From Auraticoccus cholistanensis (GTDB lineage: Bacteria > Actinomycetota > Actinomycetes > Propionibacteriales > Propionibacteriaceae): 64,000 nt of DNA. Where the stretch lies: the NCBI RefSeq assembly GCF_009742705.1, contig NZ_WPCU01000003.1, positions 137,262 to 201,261 of the forward strand, given 5' to 3'. Made by a program: the position numbers and the translations under genes. Below, piece after piece: positions 11,628 to 57,954 of the stretch. The number at the start of each line of letters is the position of its first letter. The first letter of the stretch is position 1. The notes below the pieces were generated by a model. The model was given only the letters and a program-made list of their open reading frames with translations. It did not search any database and had not been told where the DNA came from.

Positions 11628-11855
11628 GTCGGTGTCGACCCGGGTGAGCAGAGGAACTCGTCGTCGAGTATGAGAGGCCCGGGCGCGCGGCAACCGGGAC
11701 GCGCTCGAGCGTATCGAAGTCAAGCCGTCGGCACCGACAGTTATTCCCGCCCGCAGGGGAGCTTCCGGGCGGACCCGGGGACCTCCCCGGCGCGCCCGCG
11801 TTCACACCGGGGCGACCTGCTGCCGCGGGGCCGCCCGCGGTGGCAGACTGCGCGC
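11628..11855. promoter_or_regulatory. Divergent intergenic region, MFS / amidohydrolase
   Basis: The region holds a small palindrome GTCGG-CA-CCGAC (11727-11738) followed by an AT-richer stretch (ACAGTTATTCC), and CAGACT at 11844-11849, 6 nt before the GTG at 11856, as the amidohydrolase -10. I see no gene here. Confidence 0.4.
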
Positions 11856-13415
11856 GTGCCGCAGCCGTACGACCCCGTCGCCAGCCCCTTCCGACCCCTG
11901 CTGCTGCGCGGCGTGCGACGGGTGGCCGTGTCCGGCCGGCGGGACGAGGAGCCGGTCGACGTCCGGCTGGCCGACGGCCGGGTGGCCGAGGTGGGACGGC
12001 GGCTGGCCGCGGCCGGGGCGGAGGTCGTCGACGCCGGCGGCAGCTGGGCCCTGCCGGGGTTGTGGGACCAGCACGTGCACCTGGGCCAGTGGGGGATGAC
12101 CTTCAGCCGGCTCGACACCGCCGGCGCGGCACGTCCCTCCGACGTGCTCGACCAGGTCGCGGCCCGGGTCCGTGAGCTCGACGCCGCCGGCGCGCCCCGC
12201 CAGCAGGTGGTGACCGGGTTCGGGCACCGCACCGGCGCCTGGTGGGAGCCGGCCCGGGTGGACGAGCTGGACCGGGTCAGCGGCGGTCACCCGGTGGTGC
12301 TGATCAGCGGTGACGTCCACAGCTGCTGGATGAGCTCGGCGGCGCTGTCCCTGCTGGGGCTGCCGCCGCGCACGGGCCCGCTGGAGGAGCTGGAGTGGTT
12401 CCAGGTGCAGCCGCGGCTGCTCCAGCTGCCCGGTGCGGCCGAGCAGAACGAGGCCGGCGTGGCCCAGGCCGTGCGGGCCGCCGCCGCCCGCGGCGTGGTC
12501 GGCGTCACCGACTTCGAGTTCGCCGCCAACCACCGGCTCTGGCCCCGGCGGCTCGCCTCGGCGGCGCTGCCGCTGCGCGTCCGGGCCGGCGTCTACCCCG
12601 AGCTGCTGGAGGAGGTGGTGGCCCTCGGGCTGCGCACCGGGTCGCCGCTGGCGCCCGAGCACGACCCCGCCGGGCTGCTGCGGATGGGACCGCTCAAGAT
12701 CATCTCCGACGGCTCCCTCAACACCCGTACCGCCTGGTGCTGCGAGCCCTACGCCACCAGCTCGGCGCAGCTGGCCGGGCAGCCCACCACCGGCACGGTG
12801 AACTACCCCGCCGAGCAGCTGGCCGACCTGCTGCGACGGGCCACCGCCGCCGGGCTCGAGGTGGCCGTGCACGCGATCGGGGACGCCGCCGTCGGAGCGG
12901 CGGCGGACGTGTTCGCCGCCACCGGCGCCCGCGGCAGCGTGGAGCACGTGCAGCTCGCCCGGGTCGAGGACCTCGCCCGGCTCGCCTCGCTGGGGGTGCG
13001 GGCCAGCGTCCAACCGGTGCACCTGCTCGACGACCGCGACGTCACCGAGCTCAACTGGCCGGGCCGGGCGGACCGCTGCTTCATGTTCCGCACCATGCTC
13101 GACCTGGGCGTCGAGCTGCGGTTCGGCTCCGACGCGCCGGTCGCCCCGCTCGACCCGTGGCAGGCGATGGCCGCCGCGGTGCACCGCTCGGGCGACGACC
13201 GCGAGCCCTGGCACGCCGAGCAGGCCGTCACCGCCGCCGAGGCGCTCGCCGCCTCCACCGACGGCGTCCCCGCGCTCGTCCCCGGGGCGCCGGCCGACGT
13301 CGTCCTGGTCGACCGGGACCCGCTGGCCGAGCAGCCCGGCAGCGCGGCCGTGGCCGCCCACCTGCGCTCGGTGCAGGTGCTGGCCACCGTGGTGGCCGGC
13401 CGGCGCACCGTCTGA
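11856..13415 (+). CDS. Amidohydrolase family 3 (YtcJ-like) metal-dependent hydrolase
   Basis: The 519-residue product belongs to the YtcJ/DUF1446-free branch of amidohydrolases (PF07969-like). It has an N-terminal beta sandwich, the metal-binding HxH in WDQHVHLGQWG (about residues 70-80), the segment GPLKIISDGSLNTRTAWC, H in VAVHAIGDAA, SVEHVQL, and the Asp in FGSDAPVAPLDPW, in the expected order. Substrate unknown; relatives act on N-substituted formamides, cyclic amides or exoenzyme regulators. The start GTG at 11856 is leaderless (CAGACT 6 nt upstream). It converges on the YibE/F gene with a 25-bp gap. Confidence 0.9.
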   Translation: MPQPYDPVASPFRPLLLRGVRRVAVSGRRDEEPVDVRLADGRVAEVGRRLAAAGAEVVDAGGSWALPGLWDQHVHLGQWGMTFSRLDTAGAARPSDVLDQVAARVRELDAAGAPRQQVVTGFGHRTGAWWEPARVDELDRVSGGHPVVLISGDVHSCWMSSAALSLLGLPPRTGPLEELEWFQVQPRLLQLPGAAEQNEAGVAQAVRAAAARGVVGVTDFEFAANHRLWPRRLASAALPLRVRAGVYPELLEEVVALGLRTGSPLAPEHDPAGLLRMGPLKIISDGSLNTRTAWCCEPYATSSAQLAGQPTTGTVNYPAEQLADLLRRATAAGLEVAVHAIGDAAVGAAADVFAATGARGSVEHVQLARVEDLARLASLGVRASVQPVHLLDDRDVTELNWPGRADRCFMFRTMLDLGVELRFGSDAPVAPLDPWQAMAAAVHRSGDDREPWHAEQAVTAAEALAASTDGVPALVPGAPADVVLVDRDPLAEQPGSAAVAAHLRSVQVLATVVAGRRTV

Positions 13416-36292: not shown

Positions 36293-37771
36293 ATGCAGGT
36301 GTTCAAGCTGCCCGACCCCGGCGAGGGACTGGTCGAGGCCGAGATCGTGACCTGGCGGGTGGCCGTCGGTGACGAGGTGAAGATCAACGACGTGGTGGTC
36401 GAGATCGAGACCAGCAAGTCGCTGGTCGAGCTGCCCAGCCCGTTCGCGGGCCGGGTGGCCGAGCTGATGGTGCCCGAGGGTGCCACGGTCGACGTCGGCT
36501 CGCCCATCCTGGCCGTCGACGACGGCACCGGACCCGCGGGTGGCGGGTCCGGCTCCGCGGCGGGCGGGTCGGCCGGCCCGGCCGAGGCAGCGGAGGCCGA
36601 CGAGGCCGCCGCCCCCAACCTGGTGGGCTACGGCGTGCGGGCGGCCGGGACGTCGCGGCGGCCCCGCCGCACCGCCTCCCCCGAGCCGGTGACCGCCTCG
36701 GCCGAGCGGGCGCAGGCCCGGGTCGACGAGTCCCTCGACCCGGTCGTCACGTCGGCCCCGTCCCCGGTGGACGAGCGGGTACCGCTGGCCGGCGGCGCCG
36801 CGGAGCCCACCGGTGCACCGCTGCCCGCCCCCGGCCCCGCGCCGACCGAGCCGCGCGAGCAGCGCGGCCCCGTGCTGGCCAAGCCGCCGACCCGGCTGCT
36901 GGCCCGCCAGCTCGGCGTCGACCTGACCACCCTCACCGGCACGGGCCACGGCGGCATCATCACCCGCGACGACGTCGAGACCGCCGCCCGCACCGGTGCT
37001 CCCGTCCCCGACGCCGCGGTCGACGCGCCCCCGGCCGCCGTCGCGGCGGCCGAGCCGGTCGGTGAGCGGATCCCGGTCCGCGGGGTGCGCAAGGCGACCG
37101 CCGAGGCCGTCGTCGCCTCGGCGTTCACCGCCCCCCACGTCACCGAGTGGGTCGAGGTGGACGTCACCGCCTCGATGGAGCTGCTCGACCGGGTCCGCGC
37201 CCGCCGGGACATGGCCGGCGTCCGGCTCACCCCGCTGGTGCTGGTCGCCACCGCGGTCTGCCAGGCGCTGCGACGCACCCCCGAGCTGAACTCCCGCTGG
37301 GTGGACGGCCCGGACGGTCCCGAGATCGTCCGCTCGTCCGAGGTCAACCTCGGCATCGCGGCCGCCACCCCGCGAGGGCTGATGGTGCCCAACGTCAAGG
37401 GCGCCCAGCGGCTGCGGCTGCGCGAGCTGGCCGAGGCGCTCAACGAGCTGGTCGCGGTGGCGAAGGAGGGCCGCACCCAGCCCGCAGCGCTGTCGGGCGG
37501 CACCTTCACCATCACCAACGTCGGGGTCTTCGGCGTCGACGCGGGCACCCCCATCCTCAACCGCGGCGAGGCCGGCATCCTGTGCCTCGGCGCGATCTCG
37601 CGGCGGCCCTGGGTGGTCGGCGAGGGAGCGGAGGAGCGCATCGAGCCGCGCTGGGTGACCACGCTGTCGGTCTCCTTCGACCACCGGGTGGCCGACGGCG
37701 CCGAGGGGTCACGGTTCCTCGCCGACGTGGCGCTCATGCTGCACGACCCGGCCATGGGAGCGCTCATCTAG
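36293..37771 (+). CDS. pdhC: Dihydrolipoamide acyltransferase E2
   Basis: The 492-residue core enzyme has one lipoyl domain (lipoylated K42 in EIETSKSLVELP), a long Ala/Pro/Gly/Glu linker (about 80-190), a peripheral subunit-binding domain (PPTRLLARQLGVDLTTLTGTGHGGIITRDDV, about 197-228) and a catalytic domain ending in VSFDHRVADGAEGSRFL (HxxxDG active site). There is only one lipoyl domain, as in branched-chain E2s; the actinobacterial PDH/ODH E2 often has two or three. No E3 gene follows. A 30-bp palindrome after the stop probably terminates the transcript. Confidence 0.94.
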   Translation: MQVFKLPDPGEGLVEAEIVTWRVAVGDEVKINDVVVEIETSKSLVELPSPFAGRVAELMVPEGATVDVGSPILAVDDGTGPAGGGSGSAAGGSAGPAEAAEADEAAAPNLVGYGVRAAGTSRRPRRTASPEPVTASAERAQARVDESLDPVVTSAPSPVDERVPLAGGAAEPTGAPLPAPGPAPTEPREQRGPVLAKPPTRLLARQLGVDLTTLTGTGHGGIITRDDVETAARTGAPVPDAAVDAPPAAVAAAEPVGERIPVRGVRKATAEAVVASAFTAPHVTEWVEVDVTASMELLDRVRARRDMAGVRLTPLVLVATAVCQALRRTPELNSRWVDGPDGPEIVRSSEVNLGIAAATPRGLMVPNVKGAQRLRLRELAEALNELVAVAKEGRTQPAALSGGTFTITNVGVFGVDAGTPILNRGEAGILCLGAISRRPWVVGEGAEERIEPRWVTTLSVSFDHRVADGAEGSRFLADVALMLHDPAMGALI

Positions 37772-37802
37772 AGCGGCTGGACCCAGCGGTTCGGTTCCGA
37801 TG

Positions 37803-37842
37803 CGACGTCCGGCCGGGTACTCCCGGCCGGACGTCGTACTGG
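37803..37842 (+). repeat. Left 40-bp repeat bounding the RM island (hairpin, terminator)
   Basis: Begins CGACGTCCGGCCGGGTACT and contains a perfect 15-bp inverted repeat with a TACT loop (37803-37836). It lies 31 bp after the E2 stop and recurs in the same orientation at 44307-44346 with 35 of 40 positions identical. It can serve as bidirectional terminator for the convergent E2 and hsdR genes. Confidence 0.85.
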
Positions 37843-37897
37843 CGCTGCACGAGATTTCCTGTACGGGCATCGACCTCTCGAGCTGGATCAACCGTCG

Positions 37898-40882
37898 TCA
37901 ACTGGCCTCGGCGCGGAACTCGTCGTAGGTCGTGGTCAAGTGGTCAAGGAACCGCTCCTGAAAGTCCTGGTTGGAGAAGAACAGGTCGAACAGCAGCCCG
38001 TTCTTCTCGTGCCGCTGCACCAAGAGCTCTTTGACCCGATTCTCCAACACCAAGCGGTACTGCTGCCGGTCATTGTTCTCCGCGACGGTGCGCATGCCGT
38101 GGTCGGACTTGAGCTCGACCCGCTGCTGCTCCATCCAGATCTTGTCTGCCTCGCCAAGTTCTGCGCCGTACTTGTCGTTGAGCACCGCGATGAGCGCGGA
38201 CAGGCGGTCGAGCACTGGTTCGGCCTGCTTGCCCTTGCCCTGACCGGGCAGCGCCTCCCCGGGCTCGTCGGACGCCTCCAGTGCGATGGCGCTCTCCCCG
38301 GTTACGGCAATCCGCAGGTGGGTGAGCTGGACGGTCGAGCTGAGCTGCGGCATGGGGTCGGACTCGCCGGCCGGCAGGTCGGTGAGCAGCAGCCGTCCGT
38401 AGAGAAACAGCTCCTCCAGCTCGGGGTCGGTGAAGGGCATCACCTGAGCGACAAAGGCGTAGGCGCGGCAGAAGTGCTGCAGGGTGGCACGAAACAACTC
38501 CTGTGCCTCCTCCTCGAGGGAGACGAACCGTCCGACGGCGGGATCGAGGTTCGCGTAGATCACCGGCTGCTGGGCCGGGTCGTCCGACAGAAGGGCGCGC
38601 ACCGCGGCGTGCATCTCGTCGCTCGAAAGCACGCCAGCGGTCCGCAGCTCGTGCTCCATCGTGTACAGCACGTTCGGGTCGGTCGGGTTGGCGAAGGACT
38701 CCTCGTAGAAGTCGGCGAAGCTGTCGCGGATCTCCTCGGCGCTGTTGGCGAAGTCGAGGACGAAGGTGTCCTGCTTGCCCGGGTGGGTCCGGTTCAGCCG
38801 CGAGAGCGTCTGCACCGCCTTCACCCCAGCCAGCTTCTTGTCGACGTACATGGTGTGCAGCAGTGGTTCGTCGAAGCCGGTCTGGTACTTCTCGGCGACC
38901 ACCAACACCTGGTACTCCTCGCAGAACCTCTGGGGCAGCTGGCTCTCGCTGAAGCCGTTCATACCGGCTTCGGTGTGACGCAGGTCGGGCGCGTCGGGGT
39001 CGGTCACCTCGCCGGAGAACGCCACCAGGGCACGGATCGGTGACGGGCCGCTGTCATAGCCCTTGCGCTTGAGGTAGCCGTCGATGGCCTGCTTCATGCG
39101 GACGGCGTGCAGGCGGGACCGGGTGACCACCATCGCCTTGGCCCGGCCGTCGATCTTGCTGGCGGTCTTCTGCCGGAAGTGTTCGACGATCACCTCGGCC
39201 TTCTGCTCGAGCTGGTAGGGGTGCAGAGAGACAAAGCGGGCGAGCGCCGCCCGCGCCTTCGCCTTGTCGAGCTCGGGGTCGTGGCGGGGTTCGCTGTTGG
39301 CGAGCTTGTAGTAGGTGGCATAGGTCGTGTAGCTGGCGAGGACGTCGAGAATGAAACCCTCGTCGATGGCCTGGCGCATCGAGTACGTGTGGAACGGACG
39401 CCGGTGGCCGTCGGCGTCCAGCTGACCGAAGGTCTCCAGCGTCCGCGGCTTCGGGGTGGCTGTGAAGGCGAAGAACGACAGGTTCCGCTGCTTGCCGCGG
39501 TTCCGGGCGCTGGCAACCAAGACGTCATCGGGCTCGGCGGACGCCTCTGCCGCGGCCTCGGCCTGCTCGGCCTGGTCGAGGGCCTTCTCGCCAGTGCCGA
39601 GTACCTTCTTCAACTTGCTGACCGCGTCGCCAGTGGTGGAGGAATGCGCCTCGTCGACGATGACAGCGAACCGGCTGCCGACCACGTCGTTGGCGGTCTG
39701 GGCGATCACCGGGAACTTTTGCAGCGTAGTGACGATGATGCGAGCGGCGTTGCCCTCCAGGGCCTCGCGGAGCTGACGGGAGTGCTGGTCGACGCGGACG
39801 ATGGTGCCCGGCGTGTGGTCGAGGCCGGCGACGGTCTCCTGCAGTTGCCGGTCGAGCACCTTGCGGTCGGTGATGACGACGACCTTGTCGAAAACCGGAC
39901 GGTCGTTGGCGCCGTGCAGGCGGCTGAGTGAGTGGGCGGTCCAGGCGATGGTGTTGGACTTGCCGGAGCCGGCGGAGTGCTGGATGAGCCGGTCGGTGCC
40001 TGCGCCGTCACGCAGCGTGGCCTCGAGGATCGAGCGGACTGCGTGCCACTGGTGGAACCGGGGGAAGAGCACGCTGCCGTCCTGCTCGTGGACGAAGGTG
40101 CCCAGCAGCTCGAGGAACGCGTCGCGTTGCCACACCTGCTCCCACAGGTAGGCCGTCTGGTACCCACTCCCTGAGCCCGTCGAAGGACCAGCTGGGGGAT
40201 TCCCCGCCGCACCCGGACGCCCTGGCCCGGCTGACCCGGAGTTGAACGGCAGGAACCGGGTCGCGTCACCGGCCAGCCGGGTAGTCATCGCAACGCGGTG
40301 CGGGTCGACAGCGAAGTGGACCAGGGTGCGCTTGGCGAAGATGAGGTCGTTCGGGTGCCGGTCGGTGCGGTACTGCGCCATCGCGTGCTCGATCGTCTGC
40401 TTGGTGAGCGGGTTCTTCAGCTCGGCGGTGGCCACCGGGATGCCGTTCACCACGAGTACCAGGTCGAGCGAGTCCTGCGGGTGCGACTCCGAGTGGTGCA
40501 GTTGGCGCACCACGCCGAGCCGGTTGGCGGCGTAGCGCTCCCCCAGCTCGGCAGTGAGCGAGTTGGCCGGCTTGAACCAGCAGAGCCGCAGCGTGACGCC
40601 GGAGTCCTTGATGACGCCGCGGAGGACGCTGACCGTGCCGCGGTGGTCAATTTCGGCGGCGAGGCGCTGCAGCACCTTCCTGCGGGCGTCTGACTCGCCA
40701 CCGTGGCGGTGGACCAACTGCTGCCACGCCTTCGGCTGCGTGGTCTGGAGGAAGGCGACGACCTCGTCGGGGAAGAGGCCGAGCTTGGTGTCGTAGGACG
40801 CCGGGGCGATGCTGAGCCAGTCGTGAGCGAGGAGGTGGGCCTCGATGTTGGCCTCGAACGCGGACTCGGCGTGGACGCTCAT
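37898..40882 (-). CDS. hsdR: Type I restriction enzyme R subunit
   Basis: The 994-residue motor/nuclease has an N-terminal PD-(D/E)XK domain (D140, E154-L-K156 in VATAELKN), SF2 helicase domains with Walker A AGSGKS (304-309) and DEAH at 410-413 (VIVDEAHSS), motif III FFAFTATP and motif VI-like QTLSRLNRTHPGKQ. It cleaves DNA after ATP-driven translocation when sites are unmethylated. Residues about 217-241 (GSAGPGRPGAAGNPPAGPSTGSGSGY) are longer than the usual AGNPP-x-Y loop; the segment around 233-239 is encoded by a repeat-like sequence at 40169-40186. The start overlaps hsdS by 4 nt. Lower GC than the flanks. Confidence 0.95.
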   Translation of the reverse strand: MSVHAESAFEANIEAHLLAHDWLSIAPASYDTKLGLFPDEVVAFLQTTQPKAWQQLVHRHGGESDARRKVLQRLAAEIDHRGTVSVLRGVIKDSGVTLRLCWFKPANSLTAELGERYAANRLGVVRQLHHSESHPQDSLDLVLVVNGIPVATAELKNPLTKQTIEHAMAQYRTDRHPNDLIFAKRTLVHFAVDPHRVAMTTRLAGDATRFLPFNSGSAGPGRPGAAGNPPAGPSTGSGSGYQTAYLWEQVWQRDAFLELLGTFVHEQDGSVLFPRFHQWHAVRSILEATLRDGAGTDRLIQHSAGSGKSNTIAWTAHSLSRLHGANDRPVFDKVVVITDRKVLDRQLQETVAGLDHTPGTIVRVDQHSRQLREALEGNAARIIVTTLQKFPVIAQTANDVVGSRFAVIVDEAHSSTTGDAVSKLKKVLGTGEKALDQAEQAEAAAEASAEPDDVLVASARNRGKQRNLSFFAFTATPKPRTLETFGQLDADGHRRPFHTYSMRQAIDEGFILDVLASYTTYATYYKLANSEPRHDPELDKAKARAALARFVSLHPYQLEQKAEVIVEHFRQKTASKIDGRAKAMVVTRSRLHAVRMKQAIDGYLKRKGYDSGPSPIRALVAFSGEVTDPDAPDLRHTEAGMNGFSESQLPQRFCEEYQVLVVAEKYQTGFDEPLLHTMYVDKKLAGVKAVQTLSRLNRTHPGKQDTFVLDFANSAEEIRDSFADFYEESFANPTDPNVLYTMEHELRTAGVLSSDEMHAAVRALLSDDPAQQPVIYANLDPAVGRFVSLEEEAQELFRATLQHFCRAYAFVAQVMPFTDPELEELFLYGRLLLTDLPAGESDPMPQLSSTVQLTHLRIAVTGESAIALEASDEPGEALPGQGKGKQAEPVLDRLSALIAVLNDKYGAELGEADKIWMEQQRVELKSDHGMRTVAENNDRQQYRLVLENRVKELLVQRHEKNGLLFDLFFSNQDFQERFLDHLTTTYDEFRAEAS
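40169..40186 (-). repeat. Repeat-like element inside hsdR, in frame
   Basis: CCCTGAGCCCGTCGAAGG (plus strand) resembles the short imperfect palindrome CCCTGAGC(C/T)TGTCGAAGG that is scattered in many high-GC genomes. It is in frame and adds a Gly/Ser/Thr-rich loop to HsdR between the nuclease and helicase domains. It is the only copy I found in this window. Confidence 0.45.
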
Positions 40883-42114
40883 CCTGGGATCCCGCTTCCT
40901 GCCGTGGTGACGTCCAACTCGCCGGTGACGGCGGCTGTGATGAGGGACGTCTTGTACTCAGCGAGGAGCTCGATCGATTTGGTCAGGGCGACTTCGGCTT
41001 GGTTGGCGTGGTCACGGTACCCGCGTACGGTTTCGATCGACTTGAGTTGGCGCTCACGAGGAGCGTTTGGCACTGGCAGCGAGAGCACATCATCGCCTCG
41101 GGCCTTCGCCGGACCGCTGCCCTGCCTGACTAGCGTTCCTAGTTCGGAGCGACCGCGAGCACTGGTGATGGACATAACCACGTAGTCAGGGATCAGCATG
41201 GGACGCACGAGTCGATATGTGAGGTCCGAAAGGTAAAGGCGACCCTGATAGGTACCGAGGCGTACCACCGCGGCGTCGCCTACTAGCGCAGCTGATCCGC
41301 TTCCGCGGGTGATGAGCACATCGCCATCAGCGACGACATGGCGATGGTCTGCAACTTCAGGCGGTATGCGCTTGTTTCTCGCCGGCTCGAATGCTCCGCC
41401 GATGATTGCACTCGTCTTGAGCACGCCAGCCTCCCCCGGACCAGCCGGCACATCCTCGCCGATCGGGGATGAGCCTTGTTCGATTCCACGACAGAAGCGG
41501 CGCAAGGCGGCTGTGCCGAACGCATTCGCATCCGCATCCATCTGTGCGCTCATCGCGGAGAAGGCAGCAGATCGCGCCATGGCCACCTGCTCGCGTCGCG
41601 CGGCGATGATCCGGTCGAGCCGGTCGATCCGGTCGTCGAGGAAGTCGGCGATACGCCGCTGCTCCTGCAACGAGCCAACCTTCACCGAGATGCCTAGCAA
41701 ATCCACGGCGTTGATGGCTGGGTAACTCACACCGACGCTCTTGGCTACGACCTCTTCGATGAACGGGTCGGACCGGCAGCAGTAGGAAAGGTATCGGGGG
41801 TCAATGTGTCGTGGGTGCAACACCGCGAAGCCAGTGCTGAAGACCAGTCGCTCCGAGCTGGTCGTTGCGGGAACTTTGCCGACCGCGCGGAGGTACGTGC
41901 GCACCGTGGACACGACGGTGTCTCCCTCGACCGCAAGCCTGCGTGCTCGGCTTGGTGCCTGGGCGAAGGTAGTCTTTTCGGCTGGCACGACAACACCAGC
42001 TGAGCGGGATACGTCGGATATCTCCACGTATTTGAACTCAGTCGTTGGATCAGTATCCTCAGGCAACACATGCTGGTTGAGCCCGACTAGATAGCGCAGC
42101 GGCACCGTTCTCAC
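40879..42114 (-). CDS. hsdS: Type I restriction-modification specificity subunit S
   Basis: The 411-residue target-recognition subunit has two target recognition domains (about 5-145 and 205-360), each followed by a conserved helical region: LQEQRRIADFLDDRIDRLDRIIAARREQV and PRERQLKSIETVRGYRDHANQAEVALTKSIELLAEYKTSLI. The two TRDs are dissimilar, so the recognised sequence should be bipartite and asymmetric. This gene is the least GC-rich stretch of the window, suggesting acquisition or TRD exchange. It overlaps hsdM and hsdR by 4 nt each. Confidence 0.94.
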   Translation of the reverse strand: MRTVPLRYLVGLNQHVLPEDTDPTTEFKYVEISDVSRSAGVVVPAEKTTFAQAPSRARRLAVEGDTVVSTVRTYLRAVGKVPATTSSERLVFSTGFAVLHPRHIDPRYLSYCCRSDPFIEEVVAKSVGVSYPAINAVDLLGISVKVGSLQEQRRIADFLDDRIDRLDRIIAARREQVAMARSAAFSAMSAQMDADANAFGTAALRRFCRGIEQGSSPIGEDVPAGPGEAGVLKTSAIIGGAFEPARNKRIPPEVADHRHVVADGDVLITRGSGSAALVGDAAVVRLGTYQGRLYLSDLTYRLVRPMLIPDYVVMSITSARGRSELGTLVRQGSGPAKARGDDVLSLPVPNAPRERQLKSIETVRGYRDHANQAEVALTKSIELLAEYKTSLITAAVTGELDVTTAGSGIPG

Positions 42115-44051
42115 AGTCCAAGCCCTGTCATCCAGTGTTGGATCTGCCCCTCCAACGCCCGGATCTCCTCAGCGATCTCCCCCGCCGGCCTAGGCGGCGT
42201 ATACACGTAGAACTGCCGCGTGAACGAAATCTCCACCCCCACGCGCGTCTTGGTGTGGTCGATCCACGCGTCCGGCACGTACGGGTGGATTTCCGCCACC
42301 AGGTGCTGTTCGGCCGCCTCCTGCAGCAACTTGGCCCGCACCGCATCTTCCAGCTCGAAGAAGCCCTCGGGCAGCGGCACGTTCTCCTGGTCCCGCAGGT
42401 CCGGGTCGGGCTCAGGCTTGCCCTTCTTCGTGATGACCGGCGCCTCCGGATCGGCGACCGCGCACGCCTTCGTGAAGGCCTTCTTCTGCGCCGGTGTCAG
42501 GCCGCTGGTCTCGCCCAGCAGCGCCGCCTCGGTGTCGAACCGGCGCCCGACCAAGCTCGCGAACTGGTCGAAGGGCTCGGCCGCCACCGCCTCAGGTGTC
42601 ACCTCCCACCGGCGCCGCAGCGGGCGCTCGACCGTGATCCGTTGAAACCCGAAGGTCTCCCGTGTCAGCACCTTCACCCGGGGATCCTCGGCGTACTCGT
42701 CCAGCGCGCCGCCGTACAGCCGGGCGATCTCGGCGATGGCGTCCGGGGTGAGCTCCTTGCGCTTGTCGCCGAGTGACTTGCGCATCTTGGTTCCGAGCTC
42801 GCGGGCGTCAACGAGCCGCACCAGACCGCGGTCGGCGTTGGCCTTGTCGTTGGTCAGCAGCCACACGTAGGTGGAGATGCCGGTGTTGTAGAACATCTGG
42901 TCCGGCAGGGCGACGATGCCCTCGAGCCAGTCGTTCTCGAGGATCCAGCGGCGGATCTCCGATTCACCAGACCCGGCCTGTCCGGAGAACAGCGGCGAGC
43001 CCGATAGCACGATCGCCACCCGGGACCCAGCCGGCTTCATCTTCGACAGCATGTGCTGCAAGAAGAGCAGCGACCCGTCAGACACCCTTGGCAGTCCGGC
43101 GCCGAAGCGTCCGTGGAAGCCGAGCGACTGGTGCTCGGCCTTGATCGGGGCAGCGTAGCCCTTCCAGTCGACGCCGTACGGCGGGTTGGCCAGGATGAAG
43201 TCGAAGGTCTGGTGGGCGTAGGCGTCCTGGGTGAGGGTGTTGCCCCGCTGCATGCGGTCCGCCGGCACGCCTTGGATCATCAGGTCCGACTGGGCGATGG
43301 CCCACGTCTCGTCGTTGATCTCCTGCCCGTACACCTGCACGTGGGCGGCGTCGTTGGCGTGCTGGATGCCGTGCAGCGCTCCCATCAGCATGCCGCCGGT
43401 CCCGGCCGCGGGGTCGTAGACGGTGCGCACCGGCCGTGGGTTCTCGGTCAGCTCAGCCAGTGTCTTCCCCGTGAGCAGGAGGTCGACCATCAGCGCGATC
43501 ACCTCGCGGGGGGTGTAGTGCTCACCCGCGGTTTCGTTGCTCATCTCGGAGAACTTCCGCAGCAGCTCCTCGAAGATGTAGCCCATCGCCTCGTTGCTGA
43601 CCACGACGGGCCGCAGGTCGAGGTCGGCGAAGTCAGCCACAACGCCGTAGAGAATCCCGGCGCGCTCCATCCGCACCACTTTGTCGTCGAAACTGTAGGC
43701 CTCGATCACCGCCTGGGCGTCTGGGGAGAGTCGCCGGATGTAGCCGGCGAGGTTCTCGGCCAAGTTCTTGTCGTCGTTGAGGAGCGTGGCGAAGGTGAGC
43801 GGGGAGGTGTTGTAGAAGCCGGTGCCGGTGAGCGCCTTGAGCATCGCGTCCTGACCCTGCGATGGGTTCGTGAGGCCCTGGAAGCTCTCCAGCACCACCT
43901 CCTTGGTGGGTGCCAGCACGGCGTCCATCCGGCGCAGCACCAGCAACGGCAGCATGACCGAGCCGTACTCGTGCTGCTTGAAGGTGCCGCGCAGCTTGTC
44001 CGCCACCTTCCAGATGAACGCGACCTTGTCGGCGAAGCCTTGCGGGGCCAT
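42111..44051 (-). CDS. hsdM: Type I restriction-modification DNA N6-adenine methyltransferase M
   Basis: The 646-residue methyltransferase has an HsdM_N helical domain (about 8-145), the SAM motif DPAAGTGG (213-220), catalytic NPPY (289-292) and GEHYTPREV (177-185). The C-terminal extension (about 480-646) is long for HsdM and ends in QIQHWMTGLGL. With HsdS it methylates adenines in the recognition site and protects host DNA. ATG 44051 has GAGAGGGAGAG just upstream. First gene of the minus-strand RM operon. Confidence 0.95.
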   Translation of the reverse strand: MAPQGFADKVAFIWKVADKLRGTFKQHEYGSVMLPLLVLRRMDAVLAPTKEVVLESFQGLTNPSQGQDAMLKALTGTGFYNTSPLTFATLLNDDKNLAENLAGYIRRLSPDAQAVIEAYSFDDKVVRMERAGILYGVVADFADLDLRPVVVSNEAMGYIFEELLRKFSEMSNETAGEHYTPREVIALMVDLLLTGKTLAELTENPRPVRTVYDPAAGTGGMLMGALHGIQHANDAAHVQVYGQEINDETWAIAQSDLMIQGVPADRMQRGNTLTQDAYAHQTFDFILANPPYGVDWKGYAAPIKAEHQSLGFHGRFGAGLPRVSDGSLLFLQHMLSKMKPAGSRVAIVLSGSPLFSGQAGSGESEIRRWILENDWLEGIVALPDQMFYNTGISTYVWLLTNDKANADRGLVRLVDARELGTKMRKSLGDKRKELTPDAIAEIARLYGGALDEYAEDPRVKVLTRETFGFQRITVERPLRRRWEVTPEAVAAEPFDQFASLVGRRFDTEAALLGETSGLTPAQKKAFTKACAVADPEAPVITKKGKPEPDPDLRDQENVPLPEGFFELEDAVRAKLLQEAAEQHLVAEIHPYVPDAWIDHTKTRVGVEISFTRQFYVYTPPRPAGEIAEEIRALEGQIQHWMTGLGL

Positions 44052-44306
44052 CTCTCCCTCTCATCGCATTGTGGTTCCGTCACTATCGCAGGAGGCTCAG
44101 GTCGGTGGCCACAACTCGCGGGCACTGGGTCGGGACCCCCGGCGTTCATGGCCCTCTCACAGGCACAGGGGTTGTGGCGGCTCTGCGCTCGTGAGCAAGT
44201 TGGCTCCCGGCGGTGCCGAACGGCGACCGACGGAGGGAACGAAAAGTTCTGCTCACCGGCTGACCGCCGAGCCCAGCGCCGGAGCGTCCGCGCGAGCGCC
44301 CCAGTA
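44052..44306. other. Gene-free stretch upstream of hsdM
   Basis: No plausible gene on either strand in 255 bp (369 bp to the decarboxylase start including the repeat). It must contain the hsdM promoter on the minus strand; GATAGT at about 44092-44097 (minus) is a possible -10 without a matching -35. The DNA is mixed in composition and shows no inverted repeats besides the flanking element. Confidence 0.5.
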
Positions 44307-44346
44307 CGACGTCCGGCCGGGTACTTCCGGCCAGATGTCATACCGG
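44307..44346 (+). repeat. Right 40-bp repeat bounding the RM island
   Basis: Same first 19 bases as the left copy (CGACGTCCGGCCGGGTACT) and same orientation; the five differences are all transitions in the 3' half, which break the perfect hairpin. It lies 74 bp before the decarboxylase start. The left and right copies are 6504 bp apart. Confidence 0.85.
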
Positions 44347-44420
44347 ACACTGCAGGCCGGCTGGATGCGCTGGTGACGGACGGGTGTGACCGGGTCGGGG
44401 TGCGCGGCTACGTTGCCCGG

Positions 44421-45944
44421 GTGAGCGAGCAGCAGCAGGCGCCGCACCTGAGCGCGGAGCAGTTCCGCACCGAGGCGCACAAGGTCATCGACTGGATCGC
44501 GGACTACTGGGCGACGGTGGGGGAGCGGCCGGTGCTCTCCACCGTCGAGCCGGGCAGCGTGGCGGAGGCGGTCGACGGTCCGATCCCCGACGACCCGGAG
44601 CCCCTGGAGCAGGTGCTCTCCGACGTCGACCGGCTCCTCGTCCCCGGGCTCACGCACTGGCAGCACCCGCGGTTCTTCGCGTACTTCCCGGCCAACTCGT
44701 CACCGGCCGCCGTGCTGGGTGACCTGCTCAGCAGCGGCATCGGCGCCCAAGGGATGCTGTGGGCGACCAGCCCGTCGGTCTCCGAGCTCGAGCAGGTGGT
44801 GCTGGACCAGCTGGCCCGCGCCCTCGGCCTGTCCGAGGCCTTCTGCCACCGCCGCGAGGACGGCAGCCCGGGCGCCGGAGGCGGCGTCATCCAAGACACC
44901 GCCTCCACCGCCACCTTCACCGCGCTGCTGGCCGCCCTGCACCGGGCCACCGGCGGACGCGCCCGCACCGAGGGCGTCGAGTCCGGCCGCTACACGGTCT
45001 ACGCCTCCAGCCAGGCCCACTCCTCGCTGCAGAAGGCCGCGATGATGAGCGGGCTGGGCGAGCGAGCCGTGCGGACCATCGACGTCGATGCCTGGACCCA
45101 GCAGCTGGACGTCGCCGCCCTGGCCGAGGCGCTCAAGGCCGACGTGGCCGCCGGTCGCGTCCCGGTGATGGTGCAGGCCTGCGTGGGCACCACCGGCACC
45201 GGTGCGGTCGACCCGGTGACCGAGATGGGGGCGCTGGCCCACCGCCACGGTGCCTGGCTGCACGTCGACGCCGCCTGGGCCGGGGTGGCCGCGCTCTGCC
45301 CCGAGCACGCCTGGGTCAACGCCGGTGTGGCCGAGCACGCCGACTCCTACGTCACCAACCCGCACAAGTGGCTGCTGACCACCTTCGACTGCAGCAGCTT
45401 CTGGGTCCGCGACCGCAGCGCCCTGGTCGGGGCCCTGTCGATCCTGCCGGAGTACCTGCGCAACCCGGCCAGCGAGTCTGGTGCCGTGGTCGACTACCGC
45501 GACTGGCACCCGCAGCTCGGACGCCGGTTCCGCGCGGTCAAGCTGTGGACGGTGCTGCGCAGCTACGGGCTGTCCGGGCTCCGTGCCCACCTCCGCGCCG
45601 GTGTCGCCCAGGCGGCCCGGGTCACCGGGCTGGTGGACGCCGACCCCCGCTTCACACCCGCCGCACCGCCCTGCCTCGGGCTGGTCGCCTTCCGGCTGGC
45701 GGCCGACGCCTCCGGTGCCCGGCTCCCCGACGCCGAGGCCGACCGGCTGACCGCTGCGCTGATGACGGCGGTCAACACCTCCGGGGAGGCCTACCTGAGT
45801 CACACCCAGCTGTCGGGTCGGACGGTGCTGCGCTGGGCCGTCGGCGGCTGGCAGACCACCGCGGCCGACGTGGAACGCACCTGGCAGGTGCTCAGCGATG
45901 CCGCCGACGAGCTGCTGGGACACGCCGCCGCGACCCCGGGCTGA
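44421..45944 (+). CDS. PLP-dependent aromatic L-amino acid decarboxylase (group II)
   Basis: The 507-residue enzyme of the DDC/GAD group decarboxylates Trp, Tyr, Phe or Dopa. PLP is bound at K316 (NPHKWLLTTFDCS); the phosphate and ring contacts are in VQDTASTATFTALL-like sequence (about 157-171) and HVDAAWAG (281-288). N-terminal LTHWQHPRFFAYFPANSS is the family signature. Products would be aromatic monoamines. Start: GTG 44421 (MSEQQQAPHLS); upstream open frame is flanking repeat and island sequence. It sits just outside the right boundary of the RM island. Confidence 0.94.
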   Translation: MSEQQQAPHLSAEQFRTEAHKVIDWIADYWATVGERPVLSTVEPGSVAEAVDGPIPDDPEPLEQVLSDVDRLLVPGLTHWQHPRFFAYFPANSSPAAVLGDLLSSGIGAQGMLWATSPSVSELEQVVLDQLARALGLSEAFCHRREDGSPGAGGGVIQDTASTATFTALLAALHRATGGRARTEGVESGRYTVYASSQAHSSLQKAAMMSGLGERAVRTIDVDAWTQQLDVAALAEALKADVAAGRVPVMVQACVGTTGTGAVDPVTEMGALAHRHGAWLHVDAAWAGVAALCPEHAWVNAGVAEHADSYVTNPHKWLLTTFDCSSFWVRDRSALVGALSILPEYLRNPASESGAVVDYRDWHPQLGRRFRAVKLWTVLRSYGLSGLRAHLRAGVAQAARVTGLVDADPRFTPAAPPCLGLVAFRLAADASGARLPDAEADRLTAALMTAVNTSGEAYLSHTQLSGRTVLRWAVGGWQTTAADVERTWQVLSDAADELLGHAAATPG

Positions 45945-57698: not shown

Positions 57699-57781
57699 GC
57701 GCGAGTGGCGGAACGGCAGACGCGCTGGCTTCAGGTGCCAGTGTCCTTAGGGACGTGGAGGTTCAAATCCTCTCTCGCGCA
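57699..57781 (+). tRNA. tRNA-Leu, anticodon CAG
   Basis: Acceptor stem GCGCGAG/CTCGCGC with discriminator A; D arm with GGAACGGCAGA; anticodon stem CTGGC/GCCAG with the loop TTCAGGT, anticodon CAG (decodes CUG); long class II variable arm GTCC-TTA-GGAC; T arm GGAGG-TTCAAAT-CCTCT. The CCA end is not fully encoded. Its position after fhaA matches leuT of mycobacteria. No repeat of its 3' end was noticed in the window, so it does not appear to be used as an attachment site here. Confidence 0.97.
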
Positions 57782-57808
57782 CCCCACGGGGTGCCTGTTC
57801 GGCAGCCC

Positions 57809-57846
57809 GAAGACCCCCGTCCGGAGCGATCCGGGCGGGGGTCTTC
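57809..57846 (+). terminator. Terminator after tRNA-Leu
   Basis: A 17-bp stem with one G-U pair: GAAGACCCCCGTCCGGA and TCCGGGCGGGGGTCTTC around a GCGA loop; it lies 27 nt after the tRNA and is followed by GCAT, without a U-tract. Confidence 0.8.
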
Positions 57847-57954
57847 GCATGCCGCCGGTGCTGCGCCCGGCGGTGTCCACGTGGGGCCCGGCGGTGTCCG
57901 GAGGTGGCAGCCTGGGTCGGCACGTCCCACCGCGGGGCGCAGGCAGGAGAACCG

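Follow-up and report, generated by a model that had tools for sequence, protein, structure and literature searches.

A type I restriction-modification operon lies between dispersed palindromes in Auraticoccus cholistanensis and shares its layout with a widespread AbiEi-DUF559 gene unit

How can a foreign-looking operon come to lie exactly between two copies of one palindrome, when no integrase or transposase is found between them? This question is raised by a locus of Auraticoccus cholistanensis in a 64,000-nucleotide stretch of contig NZ_WPCU01000003.1. The stretch, called the window here, is part of an assembly of 3.80 Mb in 17 contigs (G000), and positions given without a contig or genome label are window coordinates. 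The operon, hsdM-hsdS-hsdR, is predicted by Pfam and PADLOC to encode a type I restriction-modification (RM) system, and it separates the gene for a 2-oxoacid dehydrogenase acyltransferase (E2) from that for a pyridoxal phosphate (PLP)-dependent decarboxylase (Table 1). A preliminary description of the locus, made from the DNA letters only, had proposed that the operon either duplicated a terminator-like target on insertion or moved by recombination between dispersed hairpins. It had correctly noted that the interior is less GC-rich (65.9% GC against 73.9-74.1% for the flanking genes) and that no tRNA site lies at the island, the sole tRNA of the window being far off at 57699. Its statement that integrases and transposases are absent holds for the stretch between the hairpins, to which our scan was confined; only the three hsd genes were found there, and no transposase was seen in the island or at its ends. 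The larger finding is that the layout of this RM island is common to a unit consisting of hairpins and a gene for an AbiEi-DUF559 nuclease.

The two 40-bp repeat copies are real; they occupy 37803-37842 and 44307-44346 in the same orientation, 6504 bp apart, and agree at 35 of 40 positions. The whole hairpin extends over 46 bp, with two 21-bp arms and the loop TACT, and at this length the copies are 38/46 identical. Every one of the eight differences is a transition, and six of them, read from left to right, change G/C to A/T. The match score of the upstream and downstream sequences is 57, while 100 shuffled pairs reach a maximum of 35. The left copy had been called a perfect hairpin, which is true over 15 pairs but not over the full length. 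The right copy had been said to have lost pairing in its 3' half, and this has to be corrected: 16 Watson-Crick and two to three G-U pairs are kept of 21, with folding energies of -27.0 and -34.2 kcal/mol on the two strands. An Rfam search gave no match.

Comparison within the genus covers one other genome, G001, which lacks the hsd genes and carries exactly one hairpin of this family between E2 and decarboxylase, as the preliminary description had anticipated for a relative without the operon. The two G001 genes are adjacent, encode proteins with 62% (E2) and 82% (decarboxylase) identity to those of the window, and are separated by 134 bp with the E2 stop codon counted. A single repeat copy in an RM-less allele is thus seen in this one relative.

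The repeats belong to a dispersed family of intergenic palindromes of about 46 bp, resembling repetitive extragenic palindromes (REP). A covariance model was built only from 12 G001 copies, which align without gaps, and at E<=1e-3 it picks out 23 G001 places, which include the 12 copies used for building. In G000 it finds the same two window places (E 1.7e-14 and 9.1e-12) and then nothing better than E 0.026. Counting the repeat over the whole of G000 gave the same picture, as the 18-mer core occurs without mismatch only at the two window places and the next best places have 2 mismatches. With up to 3 mismatches, the 21-mer arm has 21 matches in G001 (reversed control 4) and 6 in G000 (control 3), three of the latter being the window arms themselves. 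None of the 25 G001 copies examined, among them two with E slightly below 0.002, falls inside a gene according to our own crude gene caller; the neighbouring genes are tandem at 15 places, convergent at 8 and divergent at 2, compared with 64, 23 and 30 of 117 background gaps. Within the wider bacterial family, model matches at E<=1e-4 occur in 23 of 198 genomes, and in the genera read the hairpins share their build and have different arms.

Some hairpins of this build lie in other settings. A G001 hairpin at 303953 stands with a gene of 241 aa that has no Pfam match over the cut-off (303915-304807; L173 3915-4807), and between the same neighbours G000 has only a 78-bp gap (C8 277691-277768), a one-sided difference. 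In G019, two hairpins of that genome's own type, 4.3 kb apart (L242 7035-7080 and 11315-11360), bracket a native-looking ribonucleotide reductase operon with glutaredoxin, NrdI, and the large and small subunits; therefore, not every hairpin pair marks imported cargo. In the window pair, each inner arm is the exact reverse complement of the other over 21 bp and has TACT on its outer side, an arrangement that could be read as terminal inverted repeats with a 4-bp target duplication. We rejected this match as a special sign of transposon ends or attL/attR hybrids, because other members of the repeat family also match each other exactly in their inner arms (3 of 272 ordered pairs, the window pair being one).

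Three genomes, G001, G025, and G127, each carry two hairpins at a distance of about 1.05 kb with a single gene between them; the three genes belong to one family, here called X. In G001 the bracketing repeat is of the type that flanks the RM operon, with copies agreeing at 37/46 positions and lying 1052 bp apart around the X gene at 1898368-1899366; the repeat therefore does flank another unit, a possibility that the preliminary description had raised. The X proteins combine an AbiEi-like DNA-binding N-terminus with a DUF559-like nuclease C-terminus (AbiEi_4 in 20/25, DUF559 in 8/25). Against solved structures, the N-terminus matches the abortive-infection proteins 9hlo and 6y8q at E of about 2e-4, and the C-terminus has a weak match to the endonuclease-like protein 3hrl (E 0.005). 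A profile from the G001, G025, and G127 genes detects X at E<=1e-20 in 112 of the 198 genomes from the bacterial family; plasmids gave no match at E 1e-12, and the window holds no X-like match better than E 0.02. The only X gene found in G000 at E<=1e-8 is on another contig (C9:489287-490251; L286, L287), is split over two frames, and is bracketed by its own matching hairpin pair, whose sequence differs from that of the RM-flanking hairpins.

Bracketing by matching palindromes is usual for X. In a test of 300-bp upstream and downstream flanks, 23 of 30 loci of a first set matched above the 99% level of 870 mismatched pairs and 21 exceeded the mismatched maximum. The second set was formed from the 60 loci next down the X list, of which L320 was dropped at a contig end; genes with in-frame stops, G147 C4 (contig end), and, by oversight, G135 C75 were left out. 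Of the remaining 59 loci, 45 lay above the 99% level and 35 above the 99.9% level of 3422 mismatched pairs, and only 4 exceeded the mismatched maximum, which stems from a pair of related elements. Together, 68 of 89 X loci have matching flanks above the 99% level. None of 29 hsdR loci from the same bacterial family did so, a control that is not like for like, as the sequence upstream of hsdR is usually hsdS coding sequence. In 56 of the 68 matched loci the stretch is palindromic in at least one copy, and in 43 in both, at a level reached by 1% of shuffles. The 29 hairpins that pass a strict cut have a mean half-length of 21.3 nt and, in 12 cases, a centre of CG, 4 nt, and CG. When X units are compared side by side, the hairpin sequence varies between elements and agrees within one element.

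One-hairpin and two-hairpin alleles of the same site were seen twice, once with RM genes and once with X as cargo. The second case is the X unit of G096 (L316). In G086, which belongs to the same genus, the matching flanks are 77 bp apart, and a single hairpin lies in the gap between them. Its outer arms agree with the two G096 hairpins at 26/30 and 24/30 positions, whereas 32 hairpins of other X units match at 17/30 at most. Aligned as a whole, the G086 hairpin matches weakly (local score 23), with differences in the inner parts, and a further stretch of about 210 bp beside the left hairpin of G096 is unmatched. The G086 contig with this site (L137, about 11835-13153) also carries a homologue of the window hsdR, several kb from it. 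A lone hairpin in G019, by eye of that genome's own type, stands where G152 has an X unit, and this pair was too diverged to count.

Are the two window copies descendants of one another? The left copy agrees with the G001 E2/decarboxylase hairpin at 40/46 positions, and even better with one dispersed G001 copy (42/46). The right copy differs from dispersed G001 copies at 6, 6, 7, and 8 of 46 positions and from the left copy at 8, and its three best DNA matches elsewhere, all of them dispersed G001 copies, rank above the left copy. At positions 3 and 33 it has the family-consensus base, where the left copy shares the base of the G001 E2/decarboxylase hairpin. The right copy is thus closer to three dispersed copies than to its partner, although 46 bp are too short for a firm tree. 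As such, the two copies are members of the family and not demonstrably a duplicated target. The proposal of a terminator duplicated by insertion loses ground on these figures, on the dispersal of the repeat in G001, and on the seven homologous operons without such a pair that are described below; recombination between dispersed hairpins fits better.

The hsdMSR segment is laid out like an X unit that carries different cargo, and we put at about even the chance that it arrived at a lone hairpin by way of the palindromes. The ancestral E2-decarboxylase spacer would have held one hairpin, like that of G001, and palindromes of this build would be sites of X, a gene that itself usually stands between two matching copies of its own palindrome. 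The hsdMSR genes, acquired from elsewhere, would have come to form a hairpin-cargo-hairpin arrangement at that spacer, most likely because breakage at the palindromes, or homologous pairing between them, allowed a segment with hairpin ends to become established at the lone hairpin. It is possible that a hairpin of 21+4+21 bp seats two X proteins with their nuclease domains near its centre. If the DNA were cut or nicked at that point and then repaired by copying a segment with a hairpin at each end, a single hairpin would become hairpin-cargo-hairpin. The same product would arise without X by ordinary homologous recombination between palindromes. We infer that X binds and cuts these palindromes, and an X protein may have taken part in the arrival of the RM segment, which probably entered by recombination at the hairpin instead of being lost in that way from G001. 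More tentatively, and with a chance that we put clearly below even, the AbiEi-DUF559 nuclease of this actinobacterial family might drive a homing-like cycle in which a pair of monomers sits on a palindrome of about 46 bp, lone copies are cut, and repair from a hairpin-cargo-hairpin copy yields a bracketed unit; each nuclease would have its own palindrome, and other cargo could be carried, here a complete set of type I RM genes.

Several observations weigh against this account. The RM operon is the sole imported-looking cargo other than X that was seen (n = 1), gain and loss of the operon cannot be told apart from two genomes, and no intact X with an RM-type hairpin was found in G000. Among the X loci, 21 of 89 fail to exceed the 99% level in the flank comparison, the strict hairpin cut leaves only 29 of 70 matched segments from the stronger loci, and direct order is no fixed rule, since 46 of the 68 matched loci agree better in direct orientation, 19 in inverted orientation, and 3 equally. 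Local pairing in G001 is a further point: neighbouring copies less than 7 kb apart form 4 pairs against 0.9 expected (reached in 1.1% of random draws), or 3 pairs without the X unit (5.8% of draws), and the pair at the window site may thus be older than the operon. Lastly, no matching palindrome pair was detected around the seven homologous RM operons tested on both sides (L133-L136, L139, L140, and L142, the last on a Gordonia plasmid); for L137 and L138 the test covered a single side, and L141 is incomplete. The sole direct flank match above its own shuffles (31 against 26) was a 24-nt stretch at L133 that forms no hairpin, and hairpin scans of L133-L140 and L142 gave one-sided hairpins after hsdR in L136 and L137 without a matching partner. 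With no matching flanking palindromes in the operons tested, the idea that the homologous RM operons are members of one mobile element was rejected.

Other histories would also produce this locus. A pair of dispersed palindromes may already have been present in the E2-decarboxylase spacer when the RM genes entered by unrelated illegitimate recombination, which would make the bracketing incidental. The excess of local pairs in G001 speaks for such a prior pair, as do a right copy not recognisable as a copy of the left and the G019 hairpins around a native-looking operon; moreover, the right hairpin lies 249 bp from the hsdM start, and the 120 bp that adjoin this hairpin have 72% GC, near the host level. 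However, G001 has one hairpin at the site, a chance pair around the operon is unlikely as G000 has no other strong copy, and X genes are bracketed alike in most loci, so that we consider this history rather unlikely. Insertion of the RM genes into a terminator hairpin with a long target duplication, followed by decay of the unneeded right copy, appears decidedly less probable: it would account for the one copy in the operon-less relative and for the bias of the differences towards A/T, and long target duplications of RM genes are on record (PMC3031569, PMC3874152, from the portions available), but it sits poorly with the consensus bases of the right copy at positions 3 and 33 and with the closeness of that copy to three G001 copies.

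It is also conceivable that the hairpins are just transcription terminators or AbiEi-type operators with no bearing on how the operon arrived. Their intergenic position and their distribution over convergent and divergent gaps in G001 agree with such roles, and AbiEi antitoxins are described, in the accessible part of the literature, as autoregulating via inverted repeats. Nevertheless, the terminator scan showed no site with a T-run at either window hairpin, the right one sits between divergent genes, and neither role calls for matched copies flanking the members of one gene family; we regard this explanation as very improbable. Hardly credible, in our view, is that the operon is ancestral at the site and that G001 lost it by recombination between two hairpins. 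Deletion between direct repeats would leave exactly the G001 arrangement, and the left copy differs by 6 of 46 positions from that of G001 and by 8 from the right, so the pair may date back to the divergence of the two species; yet the GC content of the operon is foreign to the genome, and close hsd homologues are scattered over other genera of the bacterial family.

Among known systems, the nearest kind of element to a hairpin with X is the REP palindrome with its REP-associated tyrosine transposase (RAYT). According to the available text of PMC3733652, these REPtrons likewise comprise short dispersed intergenic palindromes, mostly downstream of genes, with one gene family flanked by palindrome copies and units in which gene and repeat are specific to each other. 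Dispersed intergenic palindromes are present in G001 at 23 places, but G000 has only two strong ones. REPtrons further differ in having a Y1 transposase in place of an AbiEi-DUF559 protein, and repeats of 20-40 bp with a GTAG/CGTC tag in place of 46 bp; no conserved unpaired tetranucleotide was seen within 6 bases of the stem, to its left or right, among the 12 G001 and two window copies. The domain PF01797 (Y1_Tnp) was absent from all five genomes scanned (G000, G001, G019, G025, and G045) and present in 5 of 14 control genomes, and a RAYT was rejected as the mobiliser for those five. The accessible portions of reports from the Kobayashi group (PMC3031569, PMC3874152) describe RM genes with long target duplications, and also RM units with short duplications and imperfect inverted-repeat ends. 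The former resemble the present locus in having RM genes between direct repeats, one copy in the RM-less allele, and no recombinase between the repeats; here, by contrast, the repeat is a dispersed palindrome family, and descent of one copy from the other is not demonstrated. AbiEi, the antitoxin of a type IV toxin-antitoxin system, has an N-terminal DNA-binding domain as X does and, as far as the available text of PMC7319586 goes, binds two 23-bp inverted repeats 3 bp apart, a build close to 21+4+21. X differs in its nuclease-like C-terminus and in its lack of room for an AbiEii toxin gene, only X fitting between the hairpins in the three units read fully (G001, G025, and G127); moreover, the gene has a hairpin to its left and to its right, and in G001 such hairpins are dispersed. 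The best-ranked matches of a literature search included no title or abstract on the pairing of palindromes with AbiEi-DUF559 proteins, although coverage of subscription journals was partial and absence from print is not claimed.

X is widespread and usually accompanied by its own palindromes, and the RM operon sits in the same kind of bracket. If the homing-like cycle sketched above operates, lone palindromes would be landing pads for defence genes on islands without an integrase, which bears on how such genes move and on what spreads palindromic repeats without a RAYT. The site is a defined 46 bp, and binding and cleavage are directly testable.

Table 1. Features of the RM island and its two native neighbours in window coordinates
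Feature	Position	Strand	Basis and remarks
E2 (2-oxoacid dehydrogenase acyltransferase), left native neighbour	36293..37771	+	Pfam 2-oxoacid_dh 6.7e-69; G001 orthologue adjoins decarboxylase
Left hairpin	37797..37842	+	21-bp arms, loop TACT; model match E 1.7e-14; positional counterpart of the single G001 hairpin
hsdR, type I restriction subunit	37898..40882	-	Pfam HSDR_N, SWI2_SNF2; 68-76% homologues in 8 genomes of the bacterial family
hsdS, specificity subunit	40879..42114	-	Pfam Methylase_S 7.8e-05; PADLOC Specificity_I 4e-35
hsdM, methyltransferase subunit	42111..44051	-	Pfam N6_Mtase 7.9e-61; PADLOC MTase_I 3.2e-234
Right hairpin	44301..44346	+	Same orientation as left; further member of the dispersed family; model match E 9.1e-12
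Candidate -10 element TACGTT	44409..44414	+	By eye, just before the decarboxylase GTG; G001 has TAGGTT there
PLP-dependent decarboxylase, right native neighbour	44421..45944	+	Pfam Pyridoxal_deC 7.1e-98

A sigma-70 scan listed no promoter in the region of the candidate -10 element. The closest named matches of the window decarboxylase are from Nocardioides, and none of 80 named contigs with the decarboxylase had an E2 match at E 1e-20 in the available flank. The only other close genome with the decarboxylase, G015 of a related genus, has different genes in the E2-decarboxylase gap, and the site may be an insertion hot spot. This genome was considered as a further empty site and set aside, as its gap holds about 3.5 kb of other genes and no hairpin of the RM-flanking kind was found there; it neither supports nor refutes the comparison with G001. 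Several copies of a short repeat lie alongside the other genes of the G015 gap (L102 4308-7777), one of which reads like what we take to be a DUF222/HNH protein. Finally, a strong 17-pair hairpin of unrelated sequence is found in the window at 57808-57847, directly after the tRNA-Leu gene (57699-57783).

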